Below, one piece after another: positions 32,741 through 49,671 of a DNA stretch of 64,000 nt. The notes beneath the pieces were generated by a model that did no database searches, had not been told where the DNA came from, and saw only the letters and a list, made by a program, of their open reading frames with translations. The position numbers were made by a program, and so were the translations under genes. This stretch comes from Sinohyriopsis cumingii (taxonomy: Eukaryota; Mollusca; Bivalvia; Unionida; Unionidae), in NCBI GenBank assembly GCA_028554795.2, contig CM068832.1, positions 84,115,049-84,179,048 on the forward strand, in the 5' to 3' direction. Within the stretch, counting starts at the first letter, position 1. Each line of letters opens with the position of its first letter.

Positions 32741-32760
32741 AGTAGTAAGGTGGGACACTT

Positions 32761-33092: not shown

Positions 33093-33108
33093 GGCCCTGA
33101 AAAGGGCC
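33093..33108 (-). terminator. Histone-type 3' stem-loop (left TIR, minus strand)
   Basis: On the minus strand: GGCCCTTTTCAGGGCC (6-bp stem, UUUC loop), 5' flank CCAAA, 3' flank AGCCA, and purine-rich GAAAAGAGA 13 nt further on. It lies 19 nt after the stop of the minus-strand ORF at 33127-33360. Stem, loop and 5' flank match the metazoan replication-dependent histone mRNA signal. Confidence 0.75.
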
Positions 33109-33126
33109 TTTGGGTTTATATTAATA

Positions 33127-33360
33127 TTAACATAGATGGCATCTGTCACATATTCTTCTTCTTCTTAAACTCCTTCTAACTGCCGGTCCATACACAAGTA
33201 CCCTCTTGAGACATCCTTGTCTTTCTATGTAAACTCTCCTCATCCATTGACTAGTATCTGTCCTATCAACAACAGTCCACTTGGACCTGACATACATGAG
33301 CATGTCCGTCCTAAACATCATGGAAGACACAAGGGTGGATGACTCAACTGTGGTCCACAT
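33127..33360 (-). CDS. Small leftward Polinton ORF, 77 aa, unknown
   Basis: It starts at ATG 33360-33358, about 47 bp after a TATAAATA box (minus strand, 33405-33412). It encodes a basic protein with an Arg-rich stretch (RRSLRRRR) ending in CDRCHLC, which could bind a metal or nucleic acid. It is divergent from the gene at 33580, with which it shares an intergenic promoter of about 220 bp. Its mRNA would end at the histone-type stem-loop in the terminal repeat. I recognise no family. Promoter and 3' signal support it as a real gene. Confidence 0.55.
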   Translation of the reverse strand: MWTTVESSTLVSSMMFRTDMLMYVRSKWTVVDRTDTSQWMRRVYIERQGCLKRVLVYGPAVRRSLRRRRICDRCHLC

Positions 33361-33404
33361 CTTGAAGCGACGAGAATAGGTGAATCAATGCAGTGAACTG
33401 CGCT

Positions 33405-33531
33405 TATTTATAGGTACAGGAAGGATTGAAACGGATTGAATTCATTCACCAATCCGAACACGCGTTACAAAATTCAGTCAGCTCGCATCCAATCCGAAGA
33501 GAGCAGTCTGTGACGTCACGTAGTCTATATA
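33405..33531. promoter_or_regulatory. Divergent promoter: TATA boxes and consensus CRE
   Basis: TATAAATA on the minus strand (33405-33412) serves the leftward ORF. TATATA at 33526-33531 serves the rightward gene. A perfect palindromic CRE, TGACGTCA, sits at 33511-33518, eight bases before the right TATA. CREB/ATF sites next to TATA are a usual design for inducible early viral promoters; that role here is inference. Confidence 0.65.
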
Positions 33532-33579
33532 GATTCGCTAGCGCTTGTGTGCAGTCAATCTATGCGACAGTGATTCAAC

Positions 33580-34041
33580 ATGACGGAAACTCAGAAAACG
33601 ATCCATTGGGGTGCACCAGCAGGGGAGACTGCCCAAGGGAACCCGGACTTACTTTCAGAAGAGGTACATTGGGATTTTGTGGATTTTCTTACCTCGCAAG
33701 AATTTGTTCCGGAACCTTCGTTACCTTCTTCATTACCGCAAGTGGAGAATTTTAGACAGAGACAGAAAGAAGAATTGGAGAAATTTATGCAACGACAAAA
33801 GGAAGCGGAACAAGCTTTTCTCCTACAGCAACAGCAACAGCAACAAGAAGAGGTAAGAAAAAAACAACAGCAACAACAGCAAGAAGAAGTAGCAGCAAAG
33901 AAACAAGAGGGTAAAAATCAAACGACTACGGTACTGTTGGACATTTTAGCGGAGTTAAGAAGTCTGAAACAAATGTATCAGACTTTTTATCACGACCGAA
34001 GAGAATACGACCTTCCCGAGCTAAACACGCCAACCCTGTGA
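33580..34041 (+). CDS. Polinton Q-rich coiled-coil protein, 153 aa
   Basis: It begins MTETQKTIHWGAPAGE. From about residue 60 it is a charged, Gln-rich coiled coil with two poly-Q tracts, ending in a less biased segment (TTTVLLDILAELRSLKQMYQ). The ATG is about 50 bp after the TATA box. A histone-type stem-loop follows 127 bp after the stop. I cannot assign a function. It resembles in style, not in sequence, the three small coiled-coil genes at the right end, which share the same type of 3' signal. Confidence 0.7.
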   Translation: MTETQKTIHWGAPAGETAQGNPDLLSEEVHWDFVDFLTSQEFVPEPSLPSSLPQVENFRQRQKEELEKFMQRQKEAEQAFLLQQQQQQQEEVRKKQQQQQQEEVAAKKQEGKNQTTTVLLDILAELRSLKQMYQTFYHDRREYDLPELNTPTL

Positions 34042-34167
34042 CTAAGCCTGTCCTACCACCCTTAGTGATTTCAACCCAATCATCAGAAGTAGGCCTTAGC
34101 CGTGGCAAAGGCTTAAGGCAGTTAAAGTTGATTGGTTAAACTCACTCCTACACCATAAAGAAAAAAA

Positions 34168-34183
34168 GGCCCTTTTCAGGGCC
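34168..34183 (+). terminator. Histone-type 3' stem-loop, best match
   Basis: GGCCCTTTTCAGGGCC, followed at once by ACCCA (34184-34188) and by GAAAAGAAA at 34197-34205. This is the full metazoan histone layout: stem-loop bound by SLBP, cleavage after ACCCA, then a purine-rich element pairing with U7 snRNA. A-rich sequence precedes it, as in histone genes. Confidence 0.8.
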
Positions 34184-34462
34184 ACCCACATTTCTCGAAA
34201 AGAAATACAATTTCAATTTGCCAATAACTCAAAAATAAACCCCACCCATTTTACCCTTATAGTACGTGTCTGTGTATGAGTGCTTGAGTGTAGCTTCTTA
34301 TTTTAAAATCAAAACTCAAAGACACTTACCTTATATCATTCATGTATTCTTTTATCCATTTTTTACAATCCAATTCACAATTCACCACAGAACACTTTAA
34401 AAAGTTCGTACACTTCTTCTTTCTCATTATTTAGTCTCTCTGTTTTTTGAATTTGCCAAGAC

Positions 34463-34468
34463 TATAAA
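34463..34468 (+). promoter_or_regulatory. TATA box for the polymerase gene
   Basis: TATAAA 49 bp before the ATG at 34517, in AT-rich intergenic sequence after the previous gene's stem-loop. Confidence 0.6.
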
Positions 34469-34516
34469 TTAGTCTATGGTGTTTAAACTTGAGTCATTTG
34501 ACGTTTTGCACTCAAG

Positions 34517-37500
34517 ATGAAAAGATCCTATTCATTCGAGAAGAAAGAAGAAGAAGAAGAAAGTAAGAGGCAGAAACGTGATCTATCGCCTCGTACCAGG
34601 GCTGAAATCTTGGCACAAATTCATGCCAGTGATTTTGAAGAGGACATGAGTGAACCAGAATCCGAACCCTCTAAACCAAGTTCACCACCCTTAGTCAACC
34701 CTGAAAAGTACTATTCCATTCGAGAGACGGAAAAGCGCTCCTCTAGAAAATTTAGAACCACTGCTTACACCTACACGGTGAAGTTTAAAGATTTCAAGTC
34801 CGACGTACCCTTGGAGAAAGCAGAAGGGTTTATCACCGAGATGTGGCATTCTTTGCTCACCGCACTCAAGCGACAATGTCAAGCCAAAGAAGACGATCGC
34901 TTGACACTATCCACAGATCACGACGGTTTGAAATCCCCTGTTTGGATCGAGTTTAGCAGACCCGCAGAACTGACCCCTTCCAAAGTCATGGACAAGATAC
35001 AACACGTACAACAATCTAATGACCAGTTTGACATCACCGATGGTAACGCCACACTGAAAATGGCCCACGTCTCTCCTCCTCAAGGGACTGGACGCAAAAA
35101 GATCTTATTGGTGGACGACCTTCGCAACACCAAAAAGAGTCTCGTCCGAATTAACAACCCTCAAGACCAGATGTGTTTAGCCAGGGCCATCGTGGTGGGA
35201 CGAACCTATGCCAACAAGAACGACACGGTAGAATGGAAAAGAACCTGGAACACTATTCAACAATCCGACCGAGCCAAACAACGAAATGAAGCAGAACTCC
35301 TGTTGCAACAAGCTGGCCTGTCCAAAGACACACCCTGTGGCATTCCTGAGATGCAAAAATTGCAAGATGCCCTAGCTCCACGCTATACCTTGAAAGTGCA
35401 CCCTCAAGAAATGCGCGGGTCTCTGTTGTTTCGAGGCCAAGACTTAAGGACGGAAAATACATTCATGTTTATCATCACGATGACCATTTCGATACCATTA
35501 CCAGTATCACCGGATTCCTGGGATACAGATATTACTGTGAGAAATGTGACTATGGTTATAATAATCGAGAGCAACAAAAGCATTGTGGATGGAAATGCCC
35601 AGGATGTTTGGCCTCTCCACCCTGTCTGAGCGAAGAACCAGTGCCTTGTTCGACTTGTCTGCGCACGTTTGTCAGCCCTACCTGTTACCAACAACATTTG
35701 AAAACACAAGGTTCACAGAAGAAATGTGCTTGTCAACTCCTGAGATTGTGCCCTACGTGTAGACAAGGCATACGTACCAACAATGCCAAGGCACACGTAT
35801 GTCGAGGAAAGAAAAAATGTCACATTTGTCACCACATCGTGGACTTGGAACACCAATGCTACGTGCAAAAATACCAACCCCCACCAGAGAAAGAGGAAGG
35901 TCACAAGAAGAAAGGCAATTTCATCTTTTTCGATTTCGAATGCATGCAAGAGACTGGCATTCACATTCCTAATTTCTGCGTGGCTCATCGAGCGTGCGAG
36001 AAGTGCATTCAAGAACCTATCTTCAGTCATTGCCCTCACTGCAGCAAGATTCCCGGAGGGCGTGAAAAAATCTTTCGGGGACCAAACACGTTAACCGATT
36101 TTGCCCAATGGGTCTTAGACCCCATCGACAAGACGTGGAGCCAAGAGGACATCGAACGTTACGGAGATTGTCATCGTCATGCCACAGTGATAGCTCACAA
36201 TTTCTCCGGATACGATGGACAGTTTCTTTTGAGGTACTATGCGGAACAAGGCACCGAACGTCCTAAAGTGACTTTGAACGGAGCCAAAATCATTTTCATG
36301 CAAGTGGGACAAGTACAGTTTAAAGATTCGATGAGTTACTTGGCCATGCCTTTGAGCCGAATGCCTAAAACGTTTGGAATGACAGAAATGGCTAAAGGGT
36401 ACTTTCCACACTTTTTCAATACGGAAGCCAATCAACATGCTGTTCTACCCCATTTGCCTGAGGCTCACTATTACGACCCCGACAACATGCGTACCGAACA
36501 ACGAGAAGCTTTCTACGCTTGGTACCAAGCTCACGCCTCGGACCCTTTCGACTTTCAGGAAGAAATGCTAAAGTATTGTCGTTTCGACGTGGACATTTTA
36601 CTGCGTTGCTGTGGAAAATTTCGAGAACTGTTCATGGAACACGGAGGGGTCGATCCTTTGAAAGAAGCTTGCACCATTGCCAAAGCGTGTTCCTTAGTGT
36701 ACCGCCAACGATTCATGCCTGAAAACACCGTGGCTGTCATCAGTCCTCAAACGACCCACTATGTCAAGCGTCAATACTCGGTCAAAGCCCTACGTTGGTT
36801 ACATTACTTGTGCGACAAGGAAGACAAATGGATTCAGCATGCCAACAACAGAGGAGGCAAAAAGACCATCGGAACGTGTTCGGTAGATGGCTGGGACTTA
36901 GAAAACCCCAAGATCGTGTACGAGTTTAACGGTTGCTTATTTCACGGATGTCCCGTCTGCTACCCTGACCGTGACACTAAAAATCAGGACACTTGTCAGC
37001 GACGCCTAAAGCTAGAACAGCAAGGATACCAAGTGGTGGAAATGTGGGAACACGAGTACGATCACCGTTTGAAAACCGATCCCGAGTTTAAAGGCCTCGT
37101 GGAAAGTTACCAGTTCATGGACCCGCTGAACCCGATGGATAGTTTGTACGGAGGAAGGACCAATGCCACCTGTTTGCTGTACCAAGCCGACGAAGAGAAA
37201 GGAGAAGAAATCAAATACTTGGACGTGTGTTCGCTGTATCCCTACGTGTGCAAATATTGTCGCTTTCCTGTAGGGCACCCGCAATTGTTCACGGAACACA
37301 TCGACCTGAAAAACATTCGACAATACGAAGGCTTGATCAAGTGTAAAGTTTTGCCTCCCACGAACCTATACCATCCCGTCTTACCTCACCATTGTCAAGG
37401 CAAACTGATGTTTCCCTTGTGCCGTACTTGTGCCGAAACATGCAACCAGGACCAACCTTGCCATCACAGCCAGGAAGAACGTGCCTTGACGGGAACCTGG

Positions 37501-38493
37501 GTCAGCGTGGAATTGTTCAAAGCTCTGGACATGGGATACCAACTGTTAGAAGTGTACGAAATTTGCCACTTTCCCAAGACACAACAGTACCACAAGGGTG
37601 ATCCCAGTCAGAAAGGCATTTTCGCCGACTACGTGGATGCCTTTTTGAAACTGAAACAAGAAGCCAGCGGCTATCCTTCCTGGTGTCACACTCCCGAAGA
37701 CCAAATACAATTCAAAGAGAAATACTACGCACAAGAAGGCATCTCTTTAGACCACATCGAAGAAAACGAAGGCAGGCGATCATTTGCCAAAGTGATGTTA
37801 AATTGCTTGTGTGGTAAAATGGCACAACGACCGTGTTTACCCAAGACGGAATATTTGACAGAACCTTCCCGCTACTTCCAGATGATTCACGACAAAACCA
37901 AATACATGAAACACGTGGACGTCGTTCGAGAGGATTTGATCTTGGTCAATTACGAAGAAGATCTGGACTTTGTACAAGACGACCCTTTTGAAAATGTCAT
38001 CATTGCGGCTTACGTGACAGCTCATGCTCGCTTAAAATTGTACGAAGCTTTAGAACTGTTAGAAGAACGCGTCCTGTACTTTGACACGGACAGTTGCATT
38101 TACATCCATCACCCGATTCAACATCACCCTGACATCGAAGGAGACCGTTTAGGAGCCTGGACAGACGAGCATCCCGACGACAAGATTCTAAGTTTCGTCA
38201 GTGGTGGTCCCAAAAATTACGGCTACGAATACCGGGACAAACAAGGAGAAGTGCACACGACGTGCAAAGTGAAAGGACTGACTCTGAATCATCGTACCAG
38301 TCGAGTGGACAACTTTGGGGTATTGAAAGAAGCCTTGCAATCGGGAGAGGATGGAAACTTTAAAGTGACCACCTATCAACCGAACAAGATTGTACGTTTA
38401 CCCACTCACCACATCGTCAGTCGACCCTTGGAAAAAGTCTATCAAATTGTACGGTCACGTCGGTATTGGTCTGTATATAAAAAGGAACCCTAG
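34517..38493 (+). CDS. polB: Protein-primed family B DNA polymerase (pPolB), one frameshift
   Basis: Replicates the element, probably by protein priming at the terminal repeats. The first ORF (34517-35629) starts with an acidic, NLS-like N-terminus (ESKRQKR). Family resemblance moves to another frame near 35450-35460, in an A-run, and continues to 38493, about 1,300 residues overall. Downstream are Cys/His clusters (35550-35860), exonuclease motif I (FFDFECMQ, D and E at 35932-35940), Exo II (HNFSGYDGQF), Exo III (CRFDVDI), polymerase motif A (YLDVCSLYP, about 37216), motif B (KVMLNCLCGK, about 37789) and motif C (YFDTDS, about 38077). All catalytic acids are present. The shift may be a mutation or an assembly error in a homopolymer. 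The last codons overlap the TATA box of the next gene. Confidence 0.93.
38476..38483 (+). promoter_or_regulatory. TATA box inside the polymerase 3' end
   Basis: TATAAAAA within the last codons of polB, 57 bp before the ATG at 38533. Confidence 0.6.
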
Positions 38494-38532
38494 GCAAGAT
38501 CGATAGTTCATTGTTCATTGAAGTAACTTACC

Positions 38533-38935
38533 ATGTCGTTGACGAAGAAGAAACCAGATTGGTTAGGAGTCAAATGTTGGACATCACCGAGACCAGGGTT
38601 TTGAGGCTTGGACACAAGAGGTGGCCTAGTATGCACGAGAGTTATTCAAGGAAAAAAGTTACTTTTCAACCTGTGTTAGTGACGGTGCCAGAAGAACCCG
38701 TCACCCAGGACAAGACTGTCGTGGACAGGCCTGAAAGACCCTTTCGGGAGGACACTTGTGTGACCTTACCCCTACTATAGAACTGGTTAGAACTTTACCC
38801 AAAACATGTTGTACAGACACTTGTGTTTATTCCACGTTCATGGTTATCATGTGCCTTTTATTCTTGTACTTAAGCCTTTGGCTTTTATGTATTTTTTGTC
38901 TTTCGTATTCATGTTTGAAAAAAACATTCAATAAA
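38533..38935 (+). pseudogene. Small Polinton membrane-protein remnant
   Basis: The ATG at 38533 has a TATA box upstream and an AATAAA at 38930-38935 downstream, so a transcription unit is likely. The frame from this ATG stops at 38602-38604. Polar coding-like sequence continues in a second frame to 38780. A hydrophobic segment (TFMVIMCLLFLYLSLWLLCI) followed by Lys residues lies in a third frame at about 38840-38910. This is either a one-TM protein gene broken by two indels or a spliced gene. No family recognised. Confidence 0.4.
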
Positions 38936-38952
38936 CGTGTTCTGAAAAAGTA

Positions 38953-38958
38953 TATAAA
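38953..38958 (+). promoter_or_regulatory. TATA box for the ATPase gene
   Basis: TATAAA 53 bp before the ATG at 39006. Confidence 0.6.
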
Positions 38959-39005
38959 CTCTTGTCTTGTTTGTTTTTCGTGTCACAAGTGACATTTCTC
39001 ACACC

Positions 39006-39749
39006 ATGGCTACCTCTGCTGTCTCTGCTCCCTCTTCCTCTACTGTCAAAGTCATCGACGAACACTTAGATCGTGCCAGTTGGGAGGCTTTGTATCTTCG
39101 CCATCCCTTTAACATGCTCATTGCTGGACCTAGCGGTTCAGGCAAAACCGAATTCGTCAAACGTTTGATCGAACATAAACATCATTTGATCGATCGACCC
39201 CCTCAACGAATCGTGTGGTGTTACAAAGAGTGGCAATCGGCGTACAGCCTCTTGTGAGAAAGTCAAGGCGATTCCATCGTGTTTGTGGAAGGCATTCCTA
39301 AAGAAGACGACGGCATCGTCTCTGACTCCCGTCTAACCCATTTGGTCATTTTTGACGACATGTTAGGAGAAGACGAAGAAGAAATTAAACTGTGGTTCAC
39401 GCGCAAAGGGCATCACCGTAATGCCAGTGTCGTTTACATCACCCAAAATTTGTTTCAACAAAGTAAAGCCCATCGCACCATCAGTCTCAATGCGCATTAC
39501 GTGGTCTTGTTTAAAAGCCCTCGAGATAAATCGCAAGTGCAAGTCTTAGCCAAACAGTTAGGAACGCCTTGGCTGACTCAGGCGTACGACGATGCCACTC
39601 AAACTCCACACGCCTATTTACTCGTCGATTTGAAACCTACGACCCCCGAGGATTTGCGATTTCGTACCCACGTGTTTCACCACTGGTGCCAGGACGGAGG
39701 GCCTGTCCTGTACACGTCTCCGTCCTCGACTTCATTTCACTCCCCATAA
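39006..39749 (+). pseudogene. A32-type (FtsK/HerA) genome-packaging ATPase, in-frame TGA
   Basis: One frame of 247 codons. Walker A GPSGSGKT is at residues 41-48 and Walker B LVIFDD at about 113-118, followed by DDMLGED and a Q-N motif (YITQNLF) like the sensor strand of this family. The product would pump DNA into the capsid. Codon 84 (39255-39257) is TGA with the same frame open on both sides, so only a truncated peptide lacking Walker B would be made unless the stop is read through or edited. I chose the ATG at 39006 because it follows the TATA box; the longer frame back to 38967 lacks an ATG there. Confidence 0.88.
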
Positions 39750-39756
39750 AAAAATC

Positions 39757-39764
39757 TATAAAAA
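39757..39764 (+). promoter_or_regulatory. TATA box for the 39804 gene
   Basis: TATAAAAA 40 bp before the ATG at 39804. Confidence 0.65.
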
Positions 39765-39803
39765 CCTCAGACCCTTTTTCGTCTGTCTCACTCCAGTGCG
39801 AAC

Positions 39804-40712
39804 ATGACGTCCCTTCAGCCGCATCTTCCCGTCGAATTGATTCGTGCCTTGTATGGCATCAGTCGAGAAAAAGATCCACAAACACGAGCTCGTGTCTTAG
39901 AAGCTAGTCTCAAAGAAGTCTTACGATGGTTCAAGGTGACGGCACGTCAATTACTCCAAGGAATCTTTCAGATTCCTCATCAAACCAAACGCTTTTTCGA
40001 TCGAAACAAAGTCCAACTGGCCGATCCCCGCATCGACACTCAAACCAAAAAACAAATCATTTTGAAACCTGGAGGGAGCGGTACTCTAGGAGGGGTCATC
40101 ATTCGCTCACTCTTAAGATGGGATCCTAATGCCCCCAAAGTTATACCCAAGACAAAAGTCCAACGAAACACCAAGAAGAAAAAGACCAGGTCCCCAAGGA
40201 GAACTTCTCCAGTGGCAGGACCCTCCTCTGACCAGACACCACCACCCCGGAAAAAGAAAAGAAGCCCCCAGAAAAAGAAAAGTCCACAGAAAACTAGTCG
40301 CAAGAGAGGCTCTTCGGCCAGGACGCAACCTTACACTCGCAAACCACGACCTGCCACGGCGGTGACTGCGTCTCCGGCAGCCTCACGTTTGTCCACTTCT
40401 CCGTTAATGACACCCAGAACTGAAGAGTACTTGGAGACGTTGATCACACCAAGAACTTCTCCGTTGATGACCCCCAAAAGAACTTCCCCAGTGGCAGGAC
40501 CTTCCAATTTAGTGGCAGTGGCTGCTGCTCACAAAGTACCTTCTCCCAAAATCAAAGTTCAAGAAAGATCGGGCATGTTACAAAGTTTACTGGATTTGTC
40601 CAAGCAAGAACTGGCTCGATTTAGTCCGTTACGTACCCCTGCACGACGTGTCATGCCTGTCCTCAAACTAATACGACGTCAAGACAGTCAGTGGCGACGC
40701 GTTCCAGTATAA
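39804..40712 (+). CDS. Basic Polinton virion-type protein, 302 aa
   Basis: The N-terminal third is probably helical. A glycine motif GGSGTLGG lies at about residues 90-97, of the kind cleaved in adenovirus-like precursors. A Lys/Arg/Pro/Ser-rich domain (about 115-185) follows, then Ser/Thr-Pro repeats (TSPVAGPS twice, SPLMTP twice). This looks like a DNA-condensing core or scaffold protein; that is inference, and I cannot assign an ortholog. The ORF is intact. Its stop codon TAA is part of the TATA box of the next gene. Confidence 0.7.
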   Translation: MTSLQPHLPVELIRALYGISREKDPQTRARVLEASLKEVLRWFKVTARQLLQGIFQIPHQTKRFFDRNKVQLADPRIDTQTKKQIILKPGGSGTLGGVIIRSLLRWDPNAPKVIPKTKVQRNTKKKKTRSPRRTSPVAGPSSDQTPPPRKKKRSPQKKKSPQKTSRKRGSSARTQPYTRKPRPATAVTASPAASRLSTSPLMTPRTEEYLETLITPRTSPLMTPKRTSPVAGPSNLVAVAAAHKVPSPKIKVQERSGMLQSLLDLSKQELARFSPLRTPARRVMPVLKLIRRQDSQWRRVPV

Positions 40713-40716
40713 AAAA
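40708..40716 (+). promoter_or_regulatory. TATA box overlapping a stop codon
   Basis: TATAAAAAA; the TAA at 40710-40712 is the stop of the preceding gene. The next ATG is at 40771. Confidence 0.65.
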
Positions 40717-40770
40717 GGCCTGTGACCAAGTCGGGTATCAGTGTTTTTTGGTGCTCTTGAAGACTCAAAG

Positions 40771-41157
40771 ATGTCACCCTCCAGAAAACCCCAAGGAAAG
40801 AAAAGGAAAGGACCGCCACCACGTTTAGCCAAACATGGGGACATGTTATCTGTCCTGTCCAAAGCTTCTCCACCCCTACGAAAAAAACTCATTCAAACAG
40901 CATCCAAAGAGGTCATCGATACCGTGTGCGAATGTTGTTTGAACGTTTTGAAAGGCACGATCCCTTTGTCCAAACACCAGAAACAATGCTTAGGCAAACA
41001 TCGTCACGTTCTTCGCCAAATGGTTCAAAAGAAAATTCCCATTCGTCAAAAAAAGAAGATGTTAGTGCAACGTGGAGGTATTTTACCTCTCTTGTTAGGC
41101 CCCATACTGAAAGGAGTCTTGGGAACCATGTTGGAAGGACTGGTGGGAGCAAGATAA
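40771..41157 (+). CDS. Small basic protein with hydrophobic C-terminus, 128 aa
   Basis: It begins MSPSRKPQGKKRKGPPPRLA. A central Cys/His region follows (CECCLNVLKG, H..C....H), then QRGGILPLLLGPILKGVLG at the C-terminus. A Gly-Gly site before a hydrophobic amphipathic helix is a recurrent feature of small Polinton and adintovirus virion proteins, thought to resemble adenovirus minor core or membrane-active peptides. Function is inferred from that similarity only. The ORF is intact, and TATA boxes lie before it and at its end. Confidence 0.65.
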   Translation: MSPSRKPQGKKRKGPPPRLAKHGDMLSVLSKASPPLRKKLIQTASKEVIDTVCECCLNVLKGTIPLSKHQKQCLGKHRHVLRQMVQKKIPIRQKKKMLVQRGGILPLLLGPILKGVLGTMLEGLVGAR

Positions 41158-41161
41158 AAAG
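41154..41161 (+). promoter_or_regulatory. TATA-like box overlapping a stop codon
   Basis: GATAAAAA includes the TAA stop (41155-41157) of the previous ORF and lies about 50 bp before the ATG at 41207. It is weaker than the other boxes. Confidence 0.45.
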
Positions 41162-41845: not shown

Positions 41846-41868
41846 CACACCAACCAACACAAAAAAAA

Positions 41869-42980
41869 ATGGAAAAAGTCTTAGACAGCATTTACTACGA
41901 TCCCTCGCATCCTGCAGGTTACGCAGGAGTTCAAAAATTGTATCGTGCTGCCAAAACGCGACTGAAAAGTCTCCGTTTACCTCAAGTGCAACGATGGTTA
42001 CAAGAACAAGCTACCTACACTTTACACAAACCCATTCGACGCAAGTTTGCCAGAAGTCGCACCCGAGTGGAAGGCATCGATCATCAATGGCAAGCCGATT
42101 TAGCCGATGTCTCTCATGTGGCCAGCTACAATCGTGGCTACAAATATTTGTTTTGTGTCATCGACGTCTTTTCCAAATTTGCCTGGGTCGTACCCTTGAC
42201 TTCCAAATCGAGCAGCGAGTTAGTGCGAGCCCTGCAACGAGTGTTGAAACAAAGTGGTCGTCACCCTCTTCGATTACAAACGGACAAAGGCACCGAATTT
42301 CTGAAGCAAGCTTTCCAAAAAGAATTAAAGAAACGTGACATTCATTTTTTTACCACCGAGAATCCCGAAACCAAAGCCAGCATCGTGGAACGTTTTCAAC
42401 GCACTTTGAAAGAACACATGTGGAAATATTTTACGCATCACCACACTCTGAAGTACATCGACATCTTACCGCACCTGGTGCAAGCGTACAACCAATCTTA
42501 CCATCGAAGCATCGGACGTGCCCCGCAAGACGTGACTCCCGACAACGAAGTGCTGGTGTTTGAGCGTCTGTTTGGTACGTCCCCGACGAGGGCTGTCCCC
42601 GAGAAAAGTGGAATGTTGGCCGTAGGAGATTGGGTGAGCATTGGCAAAACCAAACGCACTTTCGACAAAGGTTACTTACCTAACTGGACGACTGAATTGT
42701 TTCGCGTCACTGGACGAGTACATGGCCGTCATCCTGCCGTCTATAAATTGGAAGACATGAACGGAGAAGTGCTCAAAGGAACGTTTCATTTGCCCGAGTT
42801 ACAACGTGTCACCAAAAAAGAAGACGACGTGTACGACATCGAAAGCATTCTCGAACGCAGAACCCGTAAAGTGGGCAAACGACGTGTCAAAGAAGTCAAA
42901 GTACGTTGGAAAGGATATCCACCCAGTTTTTTTATTCTTGGATCGACGCTTCGCAAGTCATCGACTATAAAAAGAAGTGA
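41869..42980 (+). CDS. int: Retroviral-like DDE integrase with chromodomain, C-terminal frameshift
   Basis: Inserts the element into the host genome. The start is the ATG at 41869. Catalytic residues: Asp in QADLAD (residue 77), Asp in LQTDKGTEF (139) and Glu in KASIVERF (174), with 34 residues between the last two. A C-terminal chromodomain follows (DVYDIESIL...VKVRWKGYP), which would guide it to modified chromatin. Within the chromodomain a run of seven T (42927-42933) shifts the frame: the family-like end continues in the other frame to a stop at 42978-42980, while the intact frame runs on to 43101 with unrelated sequence. A homopolymer error or a real mutation are both possible. The catalytic core is whole. 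Confidence 0.92.
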
Positions 42981-42985
42981 CCATC

Positions 42986-43402
42986 ATGCCCTTTCACACA
43001 GCAGACGCAGCTACGTCGACCACTCCTCCTTCACCCAGTTCTTCTGTGCAACATTTACAAAAACAACCCTTGTGGGTGTGGTGTGGAGAACGTGTGCCTA
43101 AAACGCAAATCGTCTTTTTCTGCCAAATCTTCGTGGTGTATTGTGTCATCGGGGCAGCCATCGCCAATTTGAGTTTGCAACAAGGAGACAAACAATTGTG
43201 GACCATTTTATTGAGCAGTTGCATCGGTTACCTGCTTCCTAATCCCTTCCTGAAATTCACCTCGAACGGGAACCAAGGGAACCTTGTGTCCAGTGCCAGT
43301 GCCAGTCACCACTCCAACCACAACCAGAACCCCATTTTGGGCGGAGACACGCCTCTGACGTCCACTAACCCCTCGGACAGCCACAGAACTCTGGAATTAT
43401 GA
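42986..43402 (+). CDS. Small two-TM Polinton protein, 138 aa
   Basis: After a polar N-terminus there are two hydrophobic segments (QIVFFCQIFVVYCVIGAAI at about residues 40-60, and LWTILLSSCIGYLLPNP at about 70-87), then an Asn/Ser-rich tail. Small proteins with this twin-helix, LLPNP-ending layout recur beside capsid genes in Polintons (from general knowledge). The ATG at 42986 is six bases after the end of the shifted integrase frame. The last codons overlap the next gene by ATGA. Possible viroporin or membrane anchor (inference). Confidence 0.65.
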   Translation: MPFHTADAATSTTPPSPSSSVQHLQKQPLWVWCGERVPKTQIVFFCQIFVVYCVIGAAIANLSLQQGDKQLWTILLSSCIGYLLPNPFLKFTSNGNQGNLVSSASASHHSNHNQNPILGGDTPLTSTNPSDSHRTLEL

Positions 43403-44322
43403 GTCACCAAAACCAATTTTACTTAACCTTACCCAGTGACAGTTCCATGGAGGTGTTTCCCAAGAACACGTTGTGCTGTTACACGGCCAAATTACCTCAA
43501 GCCATCCCCTTAGATCACGAAGCCCATTGGGAAGTGGCTTTAGTAGAAATGATTCACCCGACCCAAGTCCTCAATGTCCTTCCCAATCAAAAGTTTTTTG
43601 ATGCGGAAGTTCATGACGAACAATTGCAACAGTGGATGGATAGCAATGTCAAATATGACAAGAAAACCCGTACACAAAAGTACACCACCTATCACTTGTT
43701 CATTTCCCCAGGCTATTATTTTAGTGGTCAACATTTGGTCAGCACCATAGCCTCCAGGTTTAATGTCGTGTTTCTGAAAGCTTTGGAGCATGTTAACAAA
43801 AGTGTCACCATGGAGTACCACAAAACAGCTCGTCGCTTCTTGATGAAATTTGAACGGAGTAAAATCCTGTCCATTTTATTTTGTCCTGAATTGTATGACA
43901 TGTTGGGCGGAGACATGAACCTGAGAATGAGCATGATGAAGAAAAGCAAATTACCCATCGTTTACGACAACGAGTCGTTTAGCAAGTTATTTCGTGCCCC
44001 GGTAGAACTGAACCAAGGACTGAATTTGATGTTCGTGTATTCCGATGTGGTGGAGTACAACGTGGTGGGACACACCTCCGTACCGTTACTGCGTGTCATT
44101 CCTTTCAAAGTGGATTCTGCCACGAACACTGACGAGGAAGGTGGAAACACTTACCACGTCCACCGCGAATTTGTCCATCCTCACTATTTGCCTGTCAGTA
44201 AGTCGTATTTGGACACGGTCAACATTGCTATAAAAGGAGATCTGGGACAAAATATTCCATTTACCAAAGGAAAAGTCACGGTGAAACTCCATTTTCGAAA
44301 ACGGTTCTCTCACGACTCTTAA
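43399..44322 (+). CDS. Polinton minor capsid (penton-type) protein, 307 aa
   Basis: The N-terminus MSHQNQFYLTLPSDSSMEVF and the C-terminal part (LMFVYSDVVEYNVVGHTSVP, PLLRVIPF, final KLHFRKR) are hallmarks of the single jelly-roll minor capsid protein, which sits just upstream of the major capsid gene in Polintons. It would form the five-fold vertices. The ORF is intact. Its ATG overlaps the upstream stop (ATGA) and its stop is 3 nt before the next ATG, suggesting a shared transcript. TATAAAAG at 44230-44237 near its end may serve the next gene. Confidence 0.85.
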   Translation: MSHQNQFYLTLPSDSSMEVFPKNTLCCYTAKLPQAIPLDHEAHWEVALVEMIHPTQVLNVLPNQKFFDAEVHDEQLQQWMDSNVKYDKKTRTQKYTTYHLFISPGYYFSGQHLVSTIASRFNVVFLKALEHVNKSVTMEYHKTARRFLMKFERSKILSILFCPELYDMLGGDMNLRMSMMKKSKLPIVYDNESFSKLFRAPVELNQGLNLMFVYSDVVEYNVVGHTSVPLLRVIPFKVDSATNTDEEGGNTYHVHREFVHPHYLPVSKSYLDTVNIAIKGDLGQNIPFTKGKVTVKLHFRKRFSHDS

Positions 44323-44325
44323 GTC

Positions 44326-44721
44326 ATGTATCCAGTGTACCGAGGGGTTGCTCGACAGCGAGGACACGGTTTAGGAGATATGGTAAAATCGGCCTTTCGT
44401 TCGGTGGCCCCGCTGTTGAAACCGATGGTGACACGCGGATTGCACGCCTTGAAAGATGCGGCACTGACGCAAGGCAAAGAATTTCTCCAAAATGTCATCA
44501 TCGACAAACAAAACCCTAAAGAAGCCTTCATGAGGGCAGGCAAAAATGTCTTGCTGCAAACGGGCAAAGACATTTTGGGTCACCGAGAAACACCTATAAA
44601 TGCACTGCACGCTACCGAGTCAGGCATTCAGCAAGGACAAGGCAGAAAGAGACGAAGAAAACACCCTTTCACCAGACTTCAAGCTAGAAAGGCCAAGAAA
44701 AGAAGAACCGTTCGAGACTAA
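44326..44721 (+). CDS. Small amphipathic/basic Polinton protein, 131 aa
   Basis: It begins MYPVYRGVARQRGHGLGDMV, then a likely amphipathic helix (KSAFRSVAPLLKPMVTRGLH) and Ala/Lys-rich helices, and ends in a Lys/Arg-rich tail (GRKRRRKHPF...KAKKRR). The glycine site before an amphipathic helix recalls the membrane-lytic protein VI of adenovirus-like capsids (inference). It is intact and lies between the minor and major capsid genes, as in other Polintons. Confidence 0.65.
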   Translation: MYPVYRGVARQRGHGLGDMVKSAFRSVAPLLKPMVTRGLHALKDAALTQGKEFLQNVIIDKQNPKEAFMRAGKNVLLQTGKDILGHRETPINALHATESGIQQGQGRKRRRKHPFTRLQARKAKKRRTVRD

Positions 44722-44756
44722 GACGTTTTCGATTATTGAGAAAAGAGACAAAAAAA

Positions 44757-46070
44757 ATGATGCACCGAGAATCTTGCGCTTGTTCCAAGACGGAACTGGA
44801 TCTGTTTGCCATGCCCCCTACCATGATGACGATGCAAGAATCCCAGTAGGTGGAATTTCACCCCGTCTCCTCATTGACCGATTCCGCTCCCATCGAGTTT
44901 GAAATCAAAGGACAGCCCGAAGATTACATCGATCTGAATAGCAGTTACTTGTACCTGAAAGTCAAAATTCTAGATAAGACTGGAGGTGCTATAGACGATG
45001 AAGCAGTAGCTCCCGTCAACAATTTCATGCATTCCTTGTTCAGTGGAGTGGACTTGTACTTGAATAACAAACTGGTCAGTAGCAGCATGGATACTTACCC
45101 TTATCGTGCCTACCTGGAAAATCTCTTGACGTACGGAATAGATGCCAAGAACACTCATCTCAATGCCTGTGTGGTATGGGAAGCTGACGAACCTACCAAG
45201 TTTGAAATATTGGAAACTGATGAAAAGAAAGACAACAATGATGGATTTCTAGAACGAAGAAAGAGAATCACGGGAGCCGACACAAGTTTAGAACTGATGG
45301 ATCGTTTGCATTTGGACATGTGGTTGCAAGAAAAGTATTTGCTGAACGGGGTGGATGTCCGCCTGAGACTGACTCGTAGCAGTGCCGCTTTCCATTTGAT
45401 GGCTGATAGTGACGGTTACAAAACCAAAATCCTAGAAGCCAGACTCTACGTACGCCGTGTGGAAGTGTTACCTAAAGTGGGAAACGACATCAGTCAGACG
45501 TTGAGCAGAACGACTGCCAAGTATCCCATACGACGCGTGGAAGTGAAAACCTTCACCATTCCCAAGGGACAGCGATCCATGATCGAAGATCATCTGTTCC
45601 AAGGACAGTTACCCAAACGTTTGATCGTTGGTATCGTCGAGAATACAGCCTTCAACGGAGCTGCCGAAAAAAATCCTTTCTACTTTCAACACTTTGGCGT
45701 GTCCAAAATCGAAGTCAGTCGCGATGGCAAGACCTTGTGTACCCGACCTTTCGAACCTGACTTTACCAAGAAGAATTACTTGAGATCGTACTTGTCCCTG
45801 TACGAAGCCACCGGACAGTTAGGAACCAATACCAGTCACGGTATTACGTACGAGGATTATGCAGGAGGCTACGCTTTGTGGGCTTTCGATTTCACTCCAG
45901 ACCAAGGCAGCGACGAGGGACATTTCCACCCTATAAAATCCGGCCAGATTCGTGTGGAAATTCAGTTTAAAGACCGAGACCCTGATGAAACGGTGAACGT
46001 CATCCTGTATGCAGAATTCGATAATACCATAGAAATCAACAGTTTGAGAGAAGTCATCCTAGATTACTAG
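44757..46070 (+). pseudogene. Major capsid protein (double jelly-roll), in-frame TAG at codon 31
   Basis: The frame from tandem ATGs at 44757 and 44760 gives a family-like N-terminus (HRESCACSKTELDLFAMPPT), but codon 31 (44847-44849) is TAG. The same frame then runs 406 codons to 46070 with clear Polinton capsid features: EDYIDLNSSYLYLKVKI, NNFMHSLFSGVDLYLN, SSMDTYPYRAYLENLL, and TAKYPIRRVEVK between the two jelly rolls. It would form the hexons of the virion. After the stop the first in-frame start is a GTG, so normal initiation would not yield the full protein. Two AATAAA signals follow. Confidence 0.9.
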
Positions 46071-46120
46071 AAACCATGGAAGACTGTCATCCCTCTTTAC
46101 CTAGTGGAGAAACTTTTAGT

Positions 46121-46305
46121 GTTGGATTATTGTTAAAAAATGTTAGAGTTGTTGTTGTTTAGTGTTAAGTGATTTTTGAATAAAAAATGTTGTGTTTTGA
46201 AAAAATTGTTTGATGTTATATTGTTGGATTATTGTTAAAAATGTTAGAGTTGTTGTTTAGTGTTAAGTGATTTTTGAATAAAAAATGTTGTGTTTTGAAA
46301 AAAAA
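46121..46305 (+). terminator. Duplicated poly(A) signal region after the capsid gene
   Basis: A block of about 100 bp is tandemly duplicated (46121-46222 and 46223-46305). Each has AATAAA (46179-46184 and 46277-46282) followed by the GT-rich TGTTGTGTTTTG, as in conventional cleavage/polyadenylation sites. This contrasts with the histone-type ends of the flanking small genes. Confidence 0.75.
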
Positions 46306-46410
46306 TGCCTTTGTCTTTTGTTTAGCTATAAGAATGTTGGATTGATGCTCTTTCATTTCTTACTATCCCTCCCATAACACTCACTGAACGTTGCGGCTCG
46401 AAACCCGTGT

Positions 46411-46440
46411 GGGGGATGTTTTCCTTCACGTCCGCGCTTT
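46411..46440 (+). promoter_or_regulatory. Shared promoter box, copy 1
   Basis: GGGGGATGTTTTCC followed by TTCACGTCCGCGCTTT, 64 bp before the ATG at 46504. The same box is at 47276-47305 and 48587-48616, each before a small gene. Confidence 0.7.
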
Positions 46441-46503
46441 GACTTTAAGAACCGGGGTTGTTTCCAGTCTAACCATCCATTGTCGACTCATCCTCCTAAG
46501 AAG

Positions 46504-46860
46504 ATGTGCTCCAAACTAGCTAAGCTCAACGAAGCCTACGTGAATTTGCATAGGGTCAGACACAGTCTGATACAGAAGCCAGAAGAAATAGAGAATGTGA
46601 GAATGTTAAAAATCACTGAAGACCTGATAGAAGAGCTGTTCAGAGAAGAAATGAACAGGGAAAAAGAAGAATGGACAGAGAAGTACAGACTTCAGAGACA
46701 GCAGCAACAACAACAACAAGAGCAGCAGCAGCAACCTGAAGCTGACCGAGGCTTTGTCGATTGTCGTATCGACACCAAAGAGTTCTTCTTCTCTTTCCGA
46801 AGAAGCAGACCTATCGCCAGAAAGTCTATCCTCAGAGGACATCGCATTCTTAGAAACTAA
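46504..46860 (+). CDS. Small coiled-coil Polinton gene 1, 118 aa
   Basis: It begins MCSKLAKLNEAYVNLHRVRH and is helical and charged through a Gln-rich run (QRQQQQQQQE), then basic. It shares the pattern L-x-E-x4-(L/V)-x2-V-R-x2-L with the two following genes. A more acidic, natural-looking reading of the last 35 codons exists in another frame, so a late frameshift is possible. It is preceded by the shared promoter box and followed after 34 bp by a histone-type stem-loop. Function unknown. Confidence 0.6.
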   Translation: MCSKLAKLNEAYVNLHRVRHSLIQKPEEIENVRMLKITEDLIEELFREEMNREKEEWTEKYRLQRQQQQQQQEQQQQPEADRGFVDCRIDTKEFFFSFRRSRPIARKSILRGHRILRN

Positions 46861-46893
46861 AAAGAATGCCATAGCAAACAAAAAAAAAAAAAC

Positions 46894-46909
46894 AGCCCAT
46901 TTCAGGGCT
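46894..46909 (+). terminator. Histone-type 3' stem-loop variant
   Basis: AGCCCATTTCAGGGCT with a five-pair stem and an A/A mismatch at the loop base, then ACCCA (46910-46914) and GAAAAGAAA at 46924-46932. The preserved 3' flank and downstream element argue for a functional or recently functional site. Confidence 0.7.
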
Positions 46910-47239
46910 ACCCAAATACTCTAGAAAAGAAATAACGATCGATTTGCCAATGTGTGTAGGTAGAGTAGTGTGAAAATAAACACTAACTCTTTTTAAAAAA
47001 TGTGAGGGTATGTGTTTGTGAGTTTGTGTGTTTGTAAGTGATCAAGTACGTTGGTGTGGATAGTAGATTAAAATGATGTCTTTATTTGGTGTTTGAGGTG
47101 TAGATTTAGGGGTTAGATTGGATTGCTTTGAGTATGTGGATAGTCAATCGAAGTGATTTATAAAAAATTTTAAAATAGTGATGGGTAGAATAAAAAAGTG
47201 AGTGAGTGTTTCTTTTAGGTCCGCGCGTTGTTGTTTTTT

Positions 47240-47312
47240 GGTTATGATCTAGGTAAGATCAATTTTATGTTTTTAGGGGGATGTTTTCCATCACGTCCGC
47301 GCTTTCACTATA
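47240..47312 (+). promoter_or_regulatory. Shared promoter block, copy 2, with TATA box
   Basis: GGTTATGATCTAGGTAAGAT and an AATTTTATGT phrase lead to the box GGGGGATGTTTTCC with CACGTCCGCGCTTT (47276-47305), then TATAAAT. The ATG is at 47366. The whole block recurs at 48550-48616. Confidence 0.7.
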
Positions 47313-47365
47313 AATTGAAACTCGCTGGGCAGTCTAGCTACCCTTGTTGATTGATCAACACAAGA

Positions 47366-47674
47366 ATGAATAGCAGAATAAGCAAACTTCTTGAACTCCA
47401 GATACATCTGGAATATGTCAGGCGCCTGTTAAATGAACTGGCCGCGGAGGCTATAGTAGAAGAGGAAAGAATGAAGAACGAAGAGGAGGAGAGAAGACAG
47501 AGGGAAGAGGAGGAAAAGAAACTAGAAGAGAGGATGTCGTACAATATTCCCGAGACAGAGGATTGGGGTGTTGAAGCGAATCATCCTCCCTCTGCGCTCC
47601 CCAGAAGAAAGGTGAAAGGAGACTGGGGAAGAAGATGCGTGTGTGGCGCCAGGCCAGGAAGGTGCAACCATTAG
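47366..47674 (+). CDS. Small coiled-coil Polinton gene 2, 102 aa
   Basis: It begins MNSRISKLLELQIHLEYVRR, then a strongly acidic/basic coiled coil (EEEERRQREEEEKKLEER), and ends in a Cys-containing tail (CVCGARPGRC). It carries the shared L-x-E...VR-x2-L motif. Shared promoter block upstream and a histone-type stem-loop 28 bp after the stop. Function unknown. Confidence 0.6.
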   Translation: MNSRISKLLELQIHLEYVRRLLNELAAEAIVEEERMKNEEEERRQREEEEKKLEERMSYNIPETEDWGVEANHPPSALPRRKVKGDWGRRCVCGARPGRCNH

Positions 47675-47701
47675 ATAGGTGCATCTGGAGTTCAAAAAAA
47701 C

Positions 47702-47717
47702 AGCCCTTTTAAGGGCT
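47702..47717 (+). terminator. Histone-type 3' stem-loop
   Basis: AGCCCTTTTAAGGGCT: full 6-bp stem with UUUA loop, then ACCCA (47718-47722) and GAAAAGAAA at 47731-47739. Twenty-eight bases after the stop. Confidence 0.75.
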
Positions 47718-47859
47718 ACCCAATACTCTAGAAAAGAAATAACTATCGATTTGCCAATGTGTAGGTAGAGTAGTGTGAATATAAACACTAACTCTTTTTT
47801 AAGTTAGTGTGAGGGTATGTGTTTGTGTGTTGGTGCTTGTAAGAGCTAAGGTATGTTTG

Positions 47860-48440
47860 TGTGAATAGTAGATTATGGGTTTCTTTATTATTTCTTAGCG
47901 TAGGTGGAGAGTATAGTTAGGGTTCTGTAAGCGCTCACGTACGATAGTGTGGATAGTAGATTATGGATTTTGTTTCTTGTTTCTTAGCGTATGTGAAGAG
48001 TATAGTTAGGGTTCTGTAAGCGCTCACGTACGATTGTGTGGATATTAGATTATGGATTTGTTTATTGTTTCTTAGCGTATGTGAAGAGTATAGTTAGGGT
48101 TCTGTAAACGCTCACGTACGATTGTGTGGATATTAGATTATGGATTTGTTTATTGTTTTTAGCGTATGTGGAGAGTATAGTTTGGGTTTTGTAACCGCTC
48201 ACGTACGATTGTGTGGATAGTAGATTAGGGATTTTGTTTATTGTTTCTTAGCGTATGTGTTTGTGTATTTGTGTTTGTGTGTTTGTGTTTGTACCCGCTC
48301 ACGTACGATTGTGTGGATAGTAGATTATGGATTTTGTTTATTGTTTCTTAGCGTATGTGGAGAGTATAGTTAGGGTTTTGTAAGCGCTCACGTAAGATTG
48401 TGTGGATAGTAGATTATGGATTTTGTTTTAATGATTTGCG
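47860..48440. repeat. About 88-bp tandem array with CGCTCACGTACGAT
   Basis: CGCTCACGT begins at 47932, 48021, 48109, 48196, 48296 and 48385, giving periods of 89, 88, 87, 100 and 89. Each unit also has CTTAGCGTATGTG, AGAGTATAGTTAGGGTT and GTGTGGATAGTAGATTATGG. There is no ORF. It lies between two small genes with shared promoters, so an enhancer or replication role is possible but unproven. Confidence 0.85.
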
Positions 48441-48549
48441 TGTGTAAATAGTAGATTTGGGGTTTGTTTATTGTTGCTTCACTTATGTGGATAGTATATT
48501 ATATGAAATGAGAAAAGTAGGGATGTTTTCTTTCACGTCTGCACGATGT

Positions 48550-48616
48550 TAGGTCATGATCTAGGTAATATCAATTTTATGTTTTAGGGGGATGTTTTTC
48601 TTCACGTCCGCGCTTT
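48550..48616 (+). promoter_or_regulatory. Shared promoter block, copy 3
   Basis: GGTCATGATCTAGGTAATAT, a conserved AATTTTATGTTTT, then GGGGGATGTTTTTC with CACGTCCGCGCTTTT. A partial extra copy (GGGATGTTTTCTTTCACGTC) is at about 48521-48540. The ATG at 48678 follows. Confidence 0.7.
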
Positions 48617-48677
48617 TCGTACAAGAACCCACAGTATTCGTCGTTCAAACCATTCTACGGAATAAGATACAAGGAAG

Positions 48678-49274
48678 ATGGTACCTGTAACAGAATTGTT
48701 TAACCAGTTGAAAGACATTTGGTACTGGATGGTGGATGGAGCTTATGCAGTGGAAAGGATTGAACGAGAAGGGAAGTATGAAGTAACCAGGGAGTTTGTA
48801 AGAAGGCAAGTGACAAACCTAAAATTAGCCATGGATCTGGTGGCAGAGATGATATAAGAAGAAGTAAAAAGACTAAGAGGCTTTACAGATCCAGAGTATG
48901 TAAAGATTGGTCACTTAAAGGAAGCCATGGATAATGTGATAGAAGTCAGGTGCTTTTTGGAAGACGTAATGGAATGGACAGAGTGGTCCTTTGTCAAAAA
49001 AGGCCTAGACCAGCTTAAGAAATCGGAACAACTTATGAGAAAAGTAATGGACGAAGAAGTGAAAAAGATCAAAGACAAGTGGAATAAAGAACGAAAAGAG
49101 AAAGAAAACTTAAAGAAAAAAGAGGCCTTTGACAAACTCAACAACAATTGGATCAAGATACAAGAGAAGTTCAGGGCTATGGGTCACCCAGACTGGTTAC
49201 CAGAAAAAGAAAAAAGGAAGAACAAAGGAATTTTGGGAAAGATTAGGTGGTGGATGAGAAAATGGAGGAAATAG
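48678..49274 (+). pseudogene. Small coiled-coil Polinton gene 3, in-frame TAA
   Basis: The ATG at 48678 opens MVPVTELFNQLKDIWYWMVD. The frame is interrupted by TAA at 48855-48857, then continues in the same frame to 49274 (198 codons in all). The second half holds the shared motif (LKEAMDNVIEVRCFL) and a long Lys/Glu coiled coil, ending in WWMRKWRK. The histone-type stem-loop in the right terminal repeat follows after 25 bp. It may be a longer paralog of genes 1 and 2. Function unknown. Confidence 0.55.
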
Positions 49275-49293
49275 AAGAAGAAGCAGAAGAAAG

Positions 49294-49671
49294 CCAAAGG
49301 CCCTTTTCAGGGCCAGCCATATTTCTCGAAAAGAGATAGCCTTTCCATTGCCTACCCCTTTTTTTAAATTTAAATTTAAATTTAAATTTTAAAAAAAAAA
49401 ATCCCATATTCAATTCCCCTTGTCCCTAGACAAACCCAAACTCTATACCCATGTTAATTTCCCCTTGTCGCTAGACAGACCCACACTATAGTTCCATGTT
49501 AAATTCCCCTTGTCGCTAGAGTTACCCACGATTTTTCTCCATGTTAATTTCCCTTGACGCTAATCTGACCCACGATTTTTCTCCATGTTAATTTTCCCTT
49601 GACGCTAGAGTTGCCCAAGGGGTCTTGTAACGCTAATTCCCCTTGACGGTAAAGTGGTCCACCTTACTACT
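49294..49671 (-). repeat. Polinton right terminal inverted repeat
   Basis: 378 bp, inverted copy of 32741-33113, ending CCTTACTACT next to the TATATG duplication. It carries the mirror 44/45-bp array. Confidence 0.95.
49299..49314 (+). terminator. Histone-type 3' stem-loop (right TIR)
   Basis: GGCCCTTTTCAGGGCC with 5' CCAAA, 3' AGCCA and GAAAAGAGA at 49328-49336, 25 bp after the stop of the last gene. Because it is inside the terminal repeat, both ends of the element supply the same outward-facing 3'-end signal. Confidence 0.75.

Follow-up and report, generated by a model that had tools for sequence, protein, structure and literature searches.

The accessory genes at the two ends of a Polinton in the bivalve Sinohyriopsis cumingii are probably controlled by the programme through which the host expresses its replication-dependent histone genes (promoter, SLBP and U7-type cleavage), as judged from the signals around them in the DNA. 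The element lies in the window, by which we mean the whole 64,000-nt stretch of DNA analysed, and carries five histone-type 3' stem-loops, one per accessory gene and each in the orientation of its gene. An initial annotation had placed the five at these positions and strands, 3' of small genes, and both a sequence pattern search and the Rfam model RF00032 (Histone3) agree with it. New here is that the right-end genes also bear promoter boxes of host histone genes, with no mismatch over 24 nt for H2B and over 21 nt for H4 (Table 1).

With Polinton/Maverick elements, this element shares inverted terminal repeats (arms 97% complementary over 286 nt), a 6-bp target duplication (TATATG at 32735-32740 and 49672-49677, with element ends identical over 12 nt) and a gene set of B-type polymerase, rve integrase, ATPase and capsid protein; it differs from them in its histone-type gene signals. 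The ATPase gives a weak match, in a broken frame, and the chromodomain match of the integrase is also weak (PF00385, below cut-off). No relatives of the capsid protein or polymerase were confirmed in IMG/VR, where the stem-loop pattern was found in two stretches, neither of which reached the Rfam gathering score.

Table 1. Features of the Polinton in the window; stem-loop rows include the purine element, and bits are RF00032 scores over the span given.
Feature	Positions	Strand	Remarks
Polinton with inverted terminal repeats	32741..49671	.	arms and target duplication
Lterm stem-loop (33093-33108) and purine element GAAAAGA (33079-33073)	33073..33108	-	35.6 bits (33068-33113); in terminal repeat
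Lterm, left terminal gene, 77 aa	33127..33360	-	relatives 78-97% identical (10 full-length C-terminal matches)
Gene L2, 153 aa	33580..34041	+	ORF; frame shifted near end in window copy
L2 stem-loop (34168-34183) and purine element (34197-34203)	34168..34203	+	41.2 bits (34163-34207)
B-type DNA polymerase, core gene	35608..38493	+	PF03175, 3.3e-40; open frame, start putative; no stem-loop
Integrase (rve), core gene	41830..43101	+	PF00665, 4.3e-14
Major capsid protein, core gene	44850..46070	+	728 relatives; start putative; no stem-loop
R3 histone promoter box	46413..46438	+	24/26 identical to host H1, 23/24 to host H2B
Gene R3, 118 aa	46504..46860	+	ORF
R3 stem-loop (46894-46909) and purine element (46924-46930)	46894..46930	+	20.1 bits (46889-46933)
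R2 H4-type histone promoter box	47209..47229	+	21/21 identical to host H4 promoter
R2 H2B/H1-type histone promoter box	47278..47303	+	24/24 to host H2B, 25/26 to host H1
Gene R2, 102 aa	47366..47674	+	ORF
R2 stem-loop (47702-47717) and purine element (47731-47737)	47702..47737	+	31.1 bits (47697-47742)
R1 second, weaker promoter box	48519-48539		
R1 histone promoter box	48589..48614	+	22/24 identical to host H2B
Gene R1	48678..49274	+	in-frame stop at codon 60 in window copy; uninterrupted in L010
R1 stem-loop (49299-49314) and purine element (49328-49334)	49299..49334	+	35.6 bits (49294-49339); in terminal repeat

RF00032 scores a stem of six pairs with a loop of four bases; three of the five sites lie above its gathering score of 34 bits and two below it. 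The lowest-scoring site, that of R3, is decayed, with its loop-closing pair gone; a covariance model of Polinton sites gives it 67.5 bits, the R3 site being itself a member of that model. Chance as the origin of the stem-loops is ruled out by shuffle tests: with up to three mismatches, the stem-loop pattern has five matches in the window against a mean of 0.11 and a maximum of 1 in 100 dinucleotide shuffles, and a stem-loop followed by GAAAAGA occurs five times in the element and in 0/200 shuffles. The GAAAAG starts 13 nt past the stem at four sites and 14 nt past it at the fifth, so that the purine element first noted is present throughout, at a spacing corrected from 9-14 to 13-14 nt. Stop codons precede the stems by 18, 24, 27, 33 and 126 nt (18-126 nt, where 19-127 nt had been given), the last value arising because the L2 frame is shifted near its end in the window copy; in L005, L053 and L056 a longer L2 frame ends 24-27 nt before the stem-loop, as measured from ORF ends. 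The 115-aa ORF that had been taken as the gene before the stem-loop at 49299 is only the second part of R1, because of the in-frame stop in that gene. Since the R3 site is decayed and two genes are broken, the window copy need not work.

The layout of these ends matches that of the host's own histone genes in the stem with its loop and flank, in the spacing and in the purine core, which bears out the histone-mRNA layout initially proposed. Four of the five host tandem histone genes carry GGCCCUUUU[UCA]AGGGCC, the same stem-loop version as the Polinton, and all five have GAAAAG 13-14 nt past the stem; their stop-to-stem gap is 27-38 nt, compared with 18-33 nt in the Polinton apart from L2. The 3' signals of Lterm and of R1 are each 89% identical over 36 nt to the 3' end of host H2B. 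Trained on 30 Polinton sites and nothing else, a covariance model recovers each of the five host histone ends, with scores of 38.8-60.7 bits. When the element is compared with the histone unit, each of the seven best short matches falls on a promoter box or a 3' end, and the longest word common to the two is 24 nt, against at most 20 nt in 100 shuffles. The Polinton end genes thus resemble animal replication-dependent histone genes in stem-loop, flank, purine element, spacing and stop distance, and the element resembles them also in promoter boxes and box-to-ATG distance, but the end genes encode no histones and sit in a mobile element scattered genome-wide, outside the histone array. No histone Pfam match was found in 10 window ORFs or in the ORFs of 8 relatives, and tblastn with core histones gave no match in 28 loci; with no histone coding match, the capture of whole histone genes is ruled out.

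The promoter boxes distinguish the two ends of the element. A box stands within 1,100 nt upstream of 30/36 right-type versus 0/5 left-type stem-loops, a split that was sorted by hand and leaves the left-end genes with no promoter boxes; at this reach a box may belong to the preceding gene, and 29 of the 36 right-type sites have one within 760 nt. Taken alone, the short promoter words exceed chance expectation in the window by a small margin: CACGTCCGCGCT was found three times when up to two mismatches were allowed, against 0.55 expected (1/100 shuffles as high), and GGTCCGCGCG, with up to one mismatch, was found twice, once outside the element, against 0.22 expected (2/100 shuffles as high). 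In L026, L028 and L030 the short H4-type word turns up within coding sequence as well. We presume that the promoter box resembles the HiNF-P motif; a search of the literature on the motif brought up nothing useful. HiNF-P is described, in the part of PMC5706932 drawn on here, as acting on histone H4 promoters and recruiting NPAT. That the boxes are common to host H4, H2B and H1 adds support for a link to S phase, beyond what the initial annotation had to go on.

Related Polintons carry the stem-loops across copies, also in flanks chosen by polymerase and not through the stem-loop itself. At 61 of 67 Polinton stem-loops GAAAAG follows at 13-15 nt (background 0.00088 per position), and identity among right-gene sites is 0.971 in the stem-loop and 0.984 in the purine core, against 0.477 and 0.692 in the flanks. 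Where polymerase-picked flanks reach end genes, as three do, they contain six strong sites in total, with none in the core stretch; the polymerase-picked flanks, four in all, were hand-chosen from 75 scored candidates. The Histone3 genome matches comprise at least 75 scored candidates of a far larger first screen, with 26 distinct places examined, and the conservation of the terminal-repeat sites is biased because loci L003-L030 were picked by a stem-loop; one set of counts over the loci omits the stem-loop through which each was picked. The Polinton-only model also picks up a single distant Polinton, L035, whose capsid identity is 33%. A further match, of 23.0 bits, lies at L053:5304-5350. 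Covariation amounts to a single stem pair, at which the gene classes differ, and so may reflect one event; covarying pairs are no more numerous than in shuffles.

The core genes examined lack the stem-loop, which follows the capsid gene at 0/8 capsid ends. The contrast initially drawn between the end genes and the core block holds in this respect, but its second half, the use of AATAAA by the core genes in general, is rejected as a family trait: the signal is present 3' of the capsid gene in the window copy, yet it occurs within 300 nt of only 1/8 capsid ends and within 900 nt of 3/8, and relatives have an open coding-like stretch after the capsid gene instead.

Based on these signals we can outline how the end genes might be expressed. 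The right-end genes would be transcribed from promoters with host histone boxes, tying them to the S-phase histone machinery. On all five end-gene transcripts SLBP would bind the 3' stem-loop, and the U7-guided nuclease, perhaps with the 5' end of U7 snRNA pairing with CUAGAAAAGA, would make its cut just past the loop in place of polyadenylation. The mRNAs would then be translated during DNA replication and degraded afterwards, the likely benefit being that regulatory products would be made at a time when the host supplies replication enzymes and nucleotides. We infer that SLBP, U7 and the histone transcription factors make use of these signals, that the transcripts lack poly(A) and that their timing follows S phase. 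RF00066 gave no U7 match in the host genome, nor did any control genome match; a U7 letter pattern had 42 sites versus 28 for its reversed control, and among seven sites inspected three resembled Polinton integrase sequence, and no convincing U7 hairpin was seen at any of them. PF15247, for SLBP, likewise matched neither the host genome nor any control genome.

It could be argued that the histone promoter and 3' end pieces were captured from the host in the past and are relics, multiplied by transposition and unused now. The boxes and 3' ends near-match host H2B, H4 and H1, the right-end genes are repeated cassettes with a similar promoter and 3' end, and many Polinton copies are broken. We nevertheless consider this improbable, since relics should decay alongside their flanks, whereas the stem-loop and purine element are near-invariant while gene ends and flanks diverge, and no histone coding sequence remains. 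That two of the five sites lie within terminal repeats might instead hint at a DNA signal or another RNA signal (for replication, packaging or termination) whose likeness to histone ends is coincidental. Such a signal would hardly be expected to follow stop codons in gene orientation, to have a purine element at the host's spacing, to yield a model that recovers every host histone end and to co-occur with histone promoter boxes, and we give this reading very little credence.

A dual use, in which dividing cells would make stem-loop ends and resting cells polyadenylated ones, has a precedent in H2A.X, for which the portion of PMC7807067 cited here reports both kinds of end. AATAAA lies 50-66 nt downstream of two window stem-loops (34234 and 46975) and within 300 nt after 13/29 L2 matches, several of which are pieces of one copy and some of whose signals precede the stem-loop, as well as after 4/30 right-gene matches; it is absent after most right-end matches and after all 10 Lterm matches. 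In favour of dual use, polyadenylation signals do exist downstream of histone genes in other animals, according to the relevant part of PMC1924863, though they are not the usual end there. Dual use seems to us unlikely, if still worth keeping in view. The reading we prefer remains that the end genes run under the host histone programme, and we find it reasonably likely that they represent a non-histone gene class run by the complete programme, with histone-type ends that arose early or repeatedly in Polintons, every lineage following the histone signals of the host it lives in.

The initial annotation knew of no earlier description, and we found no account of this stem-loop and promoter arrangement in Polintons in the literature, nor, by term search of two papers on Polintons and related viruses, any mention of histones or of the stem-loop. 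Six histone 3'UTR stem-loops had, however, already been counted in a collection of polinton-like virus and virophage genomes, with none in cryptophyte PLVs, in the section of PMC12220804 available to us. The Rfam-type element there is identical in kind and occurs in related elements, but that section gives no more than a number, offers no interpretation, and says nothing of gene context, purine element, promoters or a comparison with the host. The histone-like proteins of animal DNA viruses, such as the adomavirus 'Histoid' (PMC11071296, as excerpted), are another link between such viruses and histones; there a protein resembles a histone, whereas in the Polinton just the gene signals do.

If our reading is true, replication-dependent histone mRNAs are not the sole animal mRNAs to end in this stem-loop, and a mobile element with host histone start and stop signals would be a second user of the pathway. 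Its signals would be natural variants from which one could read what the host machinery requires in promoter boxes and downstream elements, and its transcripts would escape poly(A)-selected RNA-seq. The life cycle of Polintons in animals is poorly known, and the arrangement described here offers a testable account of how these elements could couple their expression to host DNA replication.

All five histone-type stem-loops that had been proposed from the sequence alone are present in the window, with 0.11 expected by chance, and each indeed follows one small gene of the Polinton in that gene's orientation. When the suggested check with the Rfam histone stem-loop model (Histone3, RF00032; gathering threshold 34 bits) was run, three of the five scored over threshold and the other two fell below it, at 31.1 and 20.1 bits. 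The stem begins 18, 24, 27 or 33 nt after the stop codon of four of these genes and 126 nt after that of the fifth, the left-end gene L2; the long gap arises because the frame is shifted near the gene end in the window copy, and the same gap measures 24-27 nt in the relatives L005, L053 and L056.

Features of the Polinton, its relatives and the host histone unit (window positions unless a locus is named)
Feature	Position	Description
Polinton	32741-49671	Inverted terminal repeats; flanked by the 6-bp target duplication TATATG
Core products		B-type polymerase, rve integrase, capsid protein
Small genes, left end		Lterm (minus strand), L2
Small genes, right end		R3, R2, R1
Repeated unit inside the terminal repeats	32770-33008; 49404-49642	Unit of 44-45 nt, repeated about five times
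Duplicated stretch after capsid gene	46070-46320	Window copy, with AATAAA; two identical 55-nt copies 98 nt apart
Tandem repeat between R2 and R1	47837-48423	Unit of about 88 nt
tRNA match	54415-54487	Rfam, 32.3 bits
CCHC zinc-knuckle gene, relatives	L056:1223-1690; L053:7771-8220	Between L2 and ORF34517; zinc-knuckle scan in L056
Zinc-finger gene promoter region	L035:840-1040	Several TGACGTCA words and a CCAAT word, like the window left-end genes
Host histone unit	L045	H3, H4, H2B, H2A, H1

The host genome is 2.9 Gb in size. The ATPase of the window Polinton gave weak matches in a broken frame, and among the 120 capsid relatives listed the animal-named ones are oysters, which makes a bivalve the probable host. 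No Pfam match over cut-off was found for the five small genes, in the window or in the scanned relatives, with R2 represented by its relatives in L010 and L055 in place of the window copy. Relatives carry a longer open stretch, starting ATGGAAGACTG, at the position following the capsid gene, and no CCHC zinc-knuckle gene was seen among the window ORFs between L2 and ORF34517. In four of the 10-kb stretches chosen by stem-loop (L013, L015, L018, L030), end genes from more than one Polinton copy adjoin, as if copies had inserted near one another's ends.

At the level of sequence, the comparison with the histone genes of the host is decisive. These genes are arrayed in tandem, one unit spanning about 8.3 kb, as judged from match spacing. 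In the unit examined, the stem is GGCCCU/AGGGCC in four of the five genes and GGUCCU/AGGACC in H1, the stop-to-stem gap is 27-38 nt, and GAAAAG stands 13 or 14 nt past the stem in all five; three of the five stem-loops of the window Polinton have exactly the sequence of the H2B stem-loop. The same GAAAAG is found at 13-15 nt in 61 of 67 Polinton stem-loops (26 loci and the window), the remaining six having CAAAAAGAG (four), GAAAAAAAA (one) or a run of A (one) there. Furthermore, a covariance model built from 30 sites, all of them from Polintons, detects every one of the five histone ends of the host, with scores of 38.8-60.7 bits.

The stem-loop belongs to the accessory genes of the element. 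In counts that exclude the stem-loop by which each locus was picked, it follows 35 of 44 gene ends (Lterm 5/5, L2 11/14, R3 7/10, R2 12/13, R1 0/2). Among the nine misses, six have a stem-loop with one or two base changes and the purine element kept (L019, L020, L022, L025, L026, L030), two are matches to an inner gene piece (L017, L024), and in one the gene is truncated by another terminal repeat (L015). The stem-loop was found after none of eight capsid gene ends, two of which are pieces of one copy, and after none of 20 matches to ORF34517, a weak control because many of these matches are paired pieces of one copy and have the polymerase gene downstream. In a sample independent of the stem-loop, consisting of four stretches near polymerase matches, the three covering end genes held six strong sites (59.7-75.6 bits) and one weak site (23.0 bits), and a polymerase-to-capsid stretch of 9 kb held none. 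One of these three, L055, is 88% identical to the window in its polymerase part and only about 50% in two proteins. The initial annotation had also set the end genes against a core block using AATAAA; that usage is not a trait of the family.

Across copies, the stem-loop and the purine core are conserved well beyond their surroundings. Averaged over all pairs of 21 right-gene sites (R2 and R3, copies pooled with paralogues), identity reaches 0.971 within the stem-loop and 0.984 within the purine core, versus 0.477 in the upstream flank and 0.692 in the downstream one; the 31 terminal-repeat sites give 0.984 and 0.906 versus 0.522 and 0.614. The contrast is weak for the 15 L2 sites (0.975 and 0.978 versus flanks of 0.875 and 0.872). 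At one stem pair both partners vary (n = 30: A-U 19, G-C 10, G-U 1), and 99.4% of cells are paired; sliding the partner leaves no more than 66.1% paired. This variation tracks gene class, and may represent a single event.

Histone promoter boxes are an addition to what the initial annotation had observed. In a short-word blastn search of the whole element against the host histone unit, every one of the seven top matches (E up to 0.002) was a promoter box or a stem-loop with its purine element. Upstream of R2, one box is identical over 24 nt to the host H2B promoter and a second over 21 nt to the H4 promoter, with close variants of the histone boxes upstream of R3 and R1. In 100 shuffles of the element, compared on the same strand with simple words excluded, the longest word shared with the histone unit was 20 nt (median 13). 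If only the window is considered and the boxes are treated as short words, they exceed chance only mildly. From box end to ATG there are 62-65 nt for R2 and R3 and 63 nt for R1 (counted by hand); the host distances are 61 (H4), 83 (H2B) and 81 nt (H1). The region upstream of host H3 in this unit has no such box word, and that of H2A a single one in reverse orientation. In 14 loci and the window, sorted by hand, a box lies within 1,100 nt upstream of 30 of 36 right-type stem-loops and of none of five left-type ones. In place of boxes, the left-end genes are preceded by CCAAT, TATA and TGACGTCA words.

A scan of bacterial genome records yielded six contigs with Polinton capsid sequence, in records of tubeworm and mussel symbionts, among others, and probably representing misbinned eukaryotic contamination. 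In one of them, L035, with a capsid identity of 33%, a gene for an 89-aa C2H2 zinc-finger protein is shortly followed by a histone stem-loop (35.8 bits with Histone3, 47.5 bits with the Polinton model) and then by CAAAAAAGAGA. Neither model found a stem-loop in the other five, which decide little because L031, L033, L034 and L036 are short and show no clear termini of an element, and L032 seems to be broken.

The initial annotation knew of no earlier description in Polintons. This needs qualifying, since a collection of polinton-like viruses and virophages counts six histone 3'UTR stem-loops, none in cryptophyte elements (PMC12220804); the count stands without further comment in the section that reports it, so the bare presence of stem-loops in related elements is already on record. 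What we did not find described, in excerpts of the literature on Polintons/Mavericks or on viruses and transposable elements with histone stem-loops (few subscription journals covered), is that the stem-loops stand behind accessory genes, that their purine element matches the one in the host and that histone promoter boxes are present. Histone mRNAs of the bivalve Lucina pectinata carry the stem-loop, and some of them also contain purine-rich elements (PMC6210712). Searches for host U7 and SLBP, which had no working control, gave no match. By analogy with histone genes (PMC5706932, PMC1924863 and PMC6303110), we infer that the transcripts of the end genes would be processed as histone mRNAs are, would lack poly(A) and would be made in S phase.
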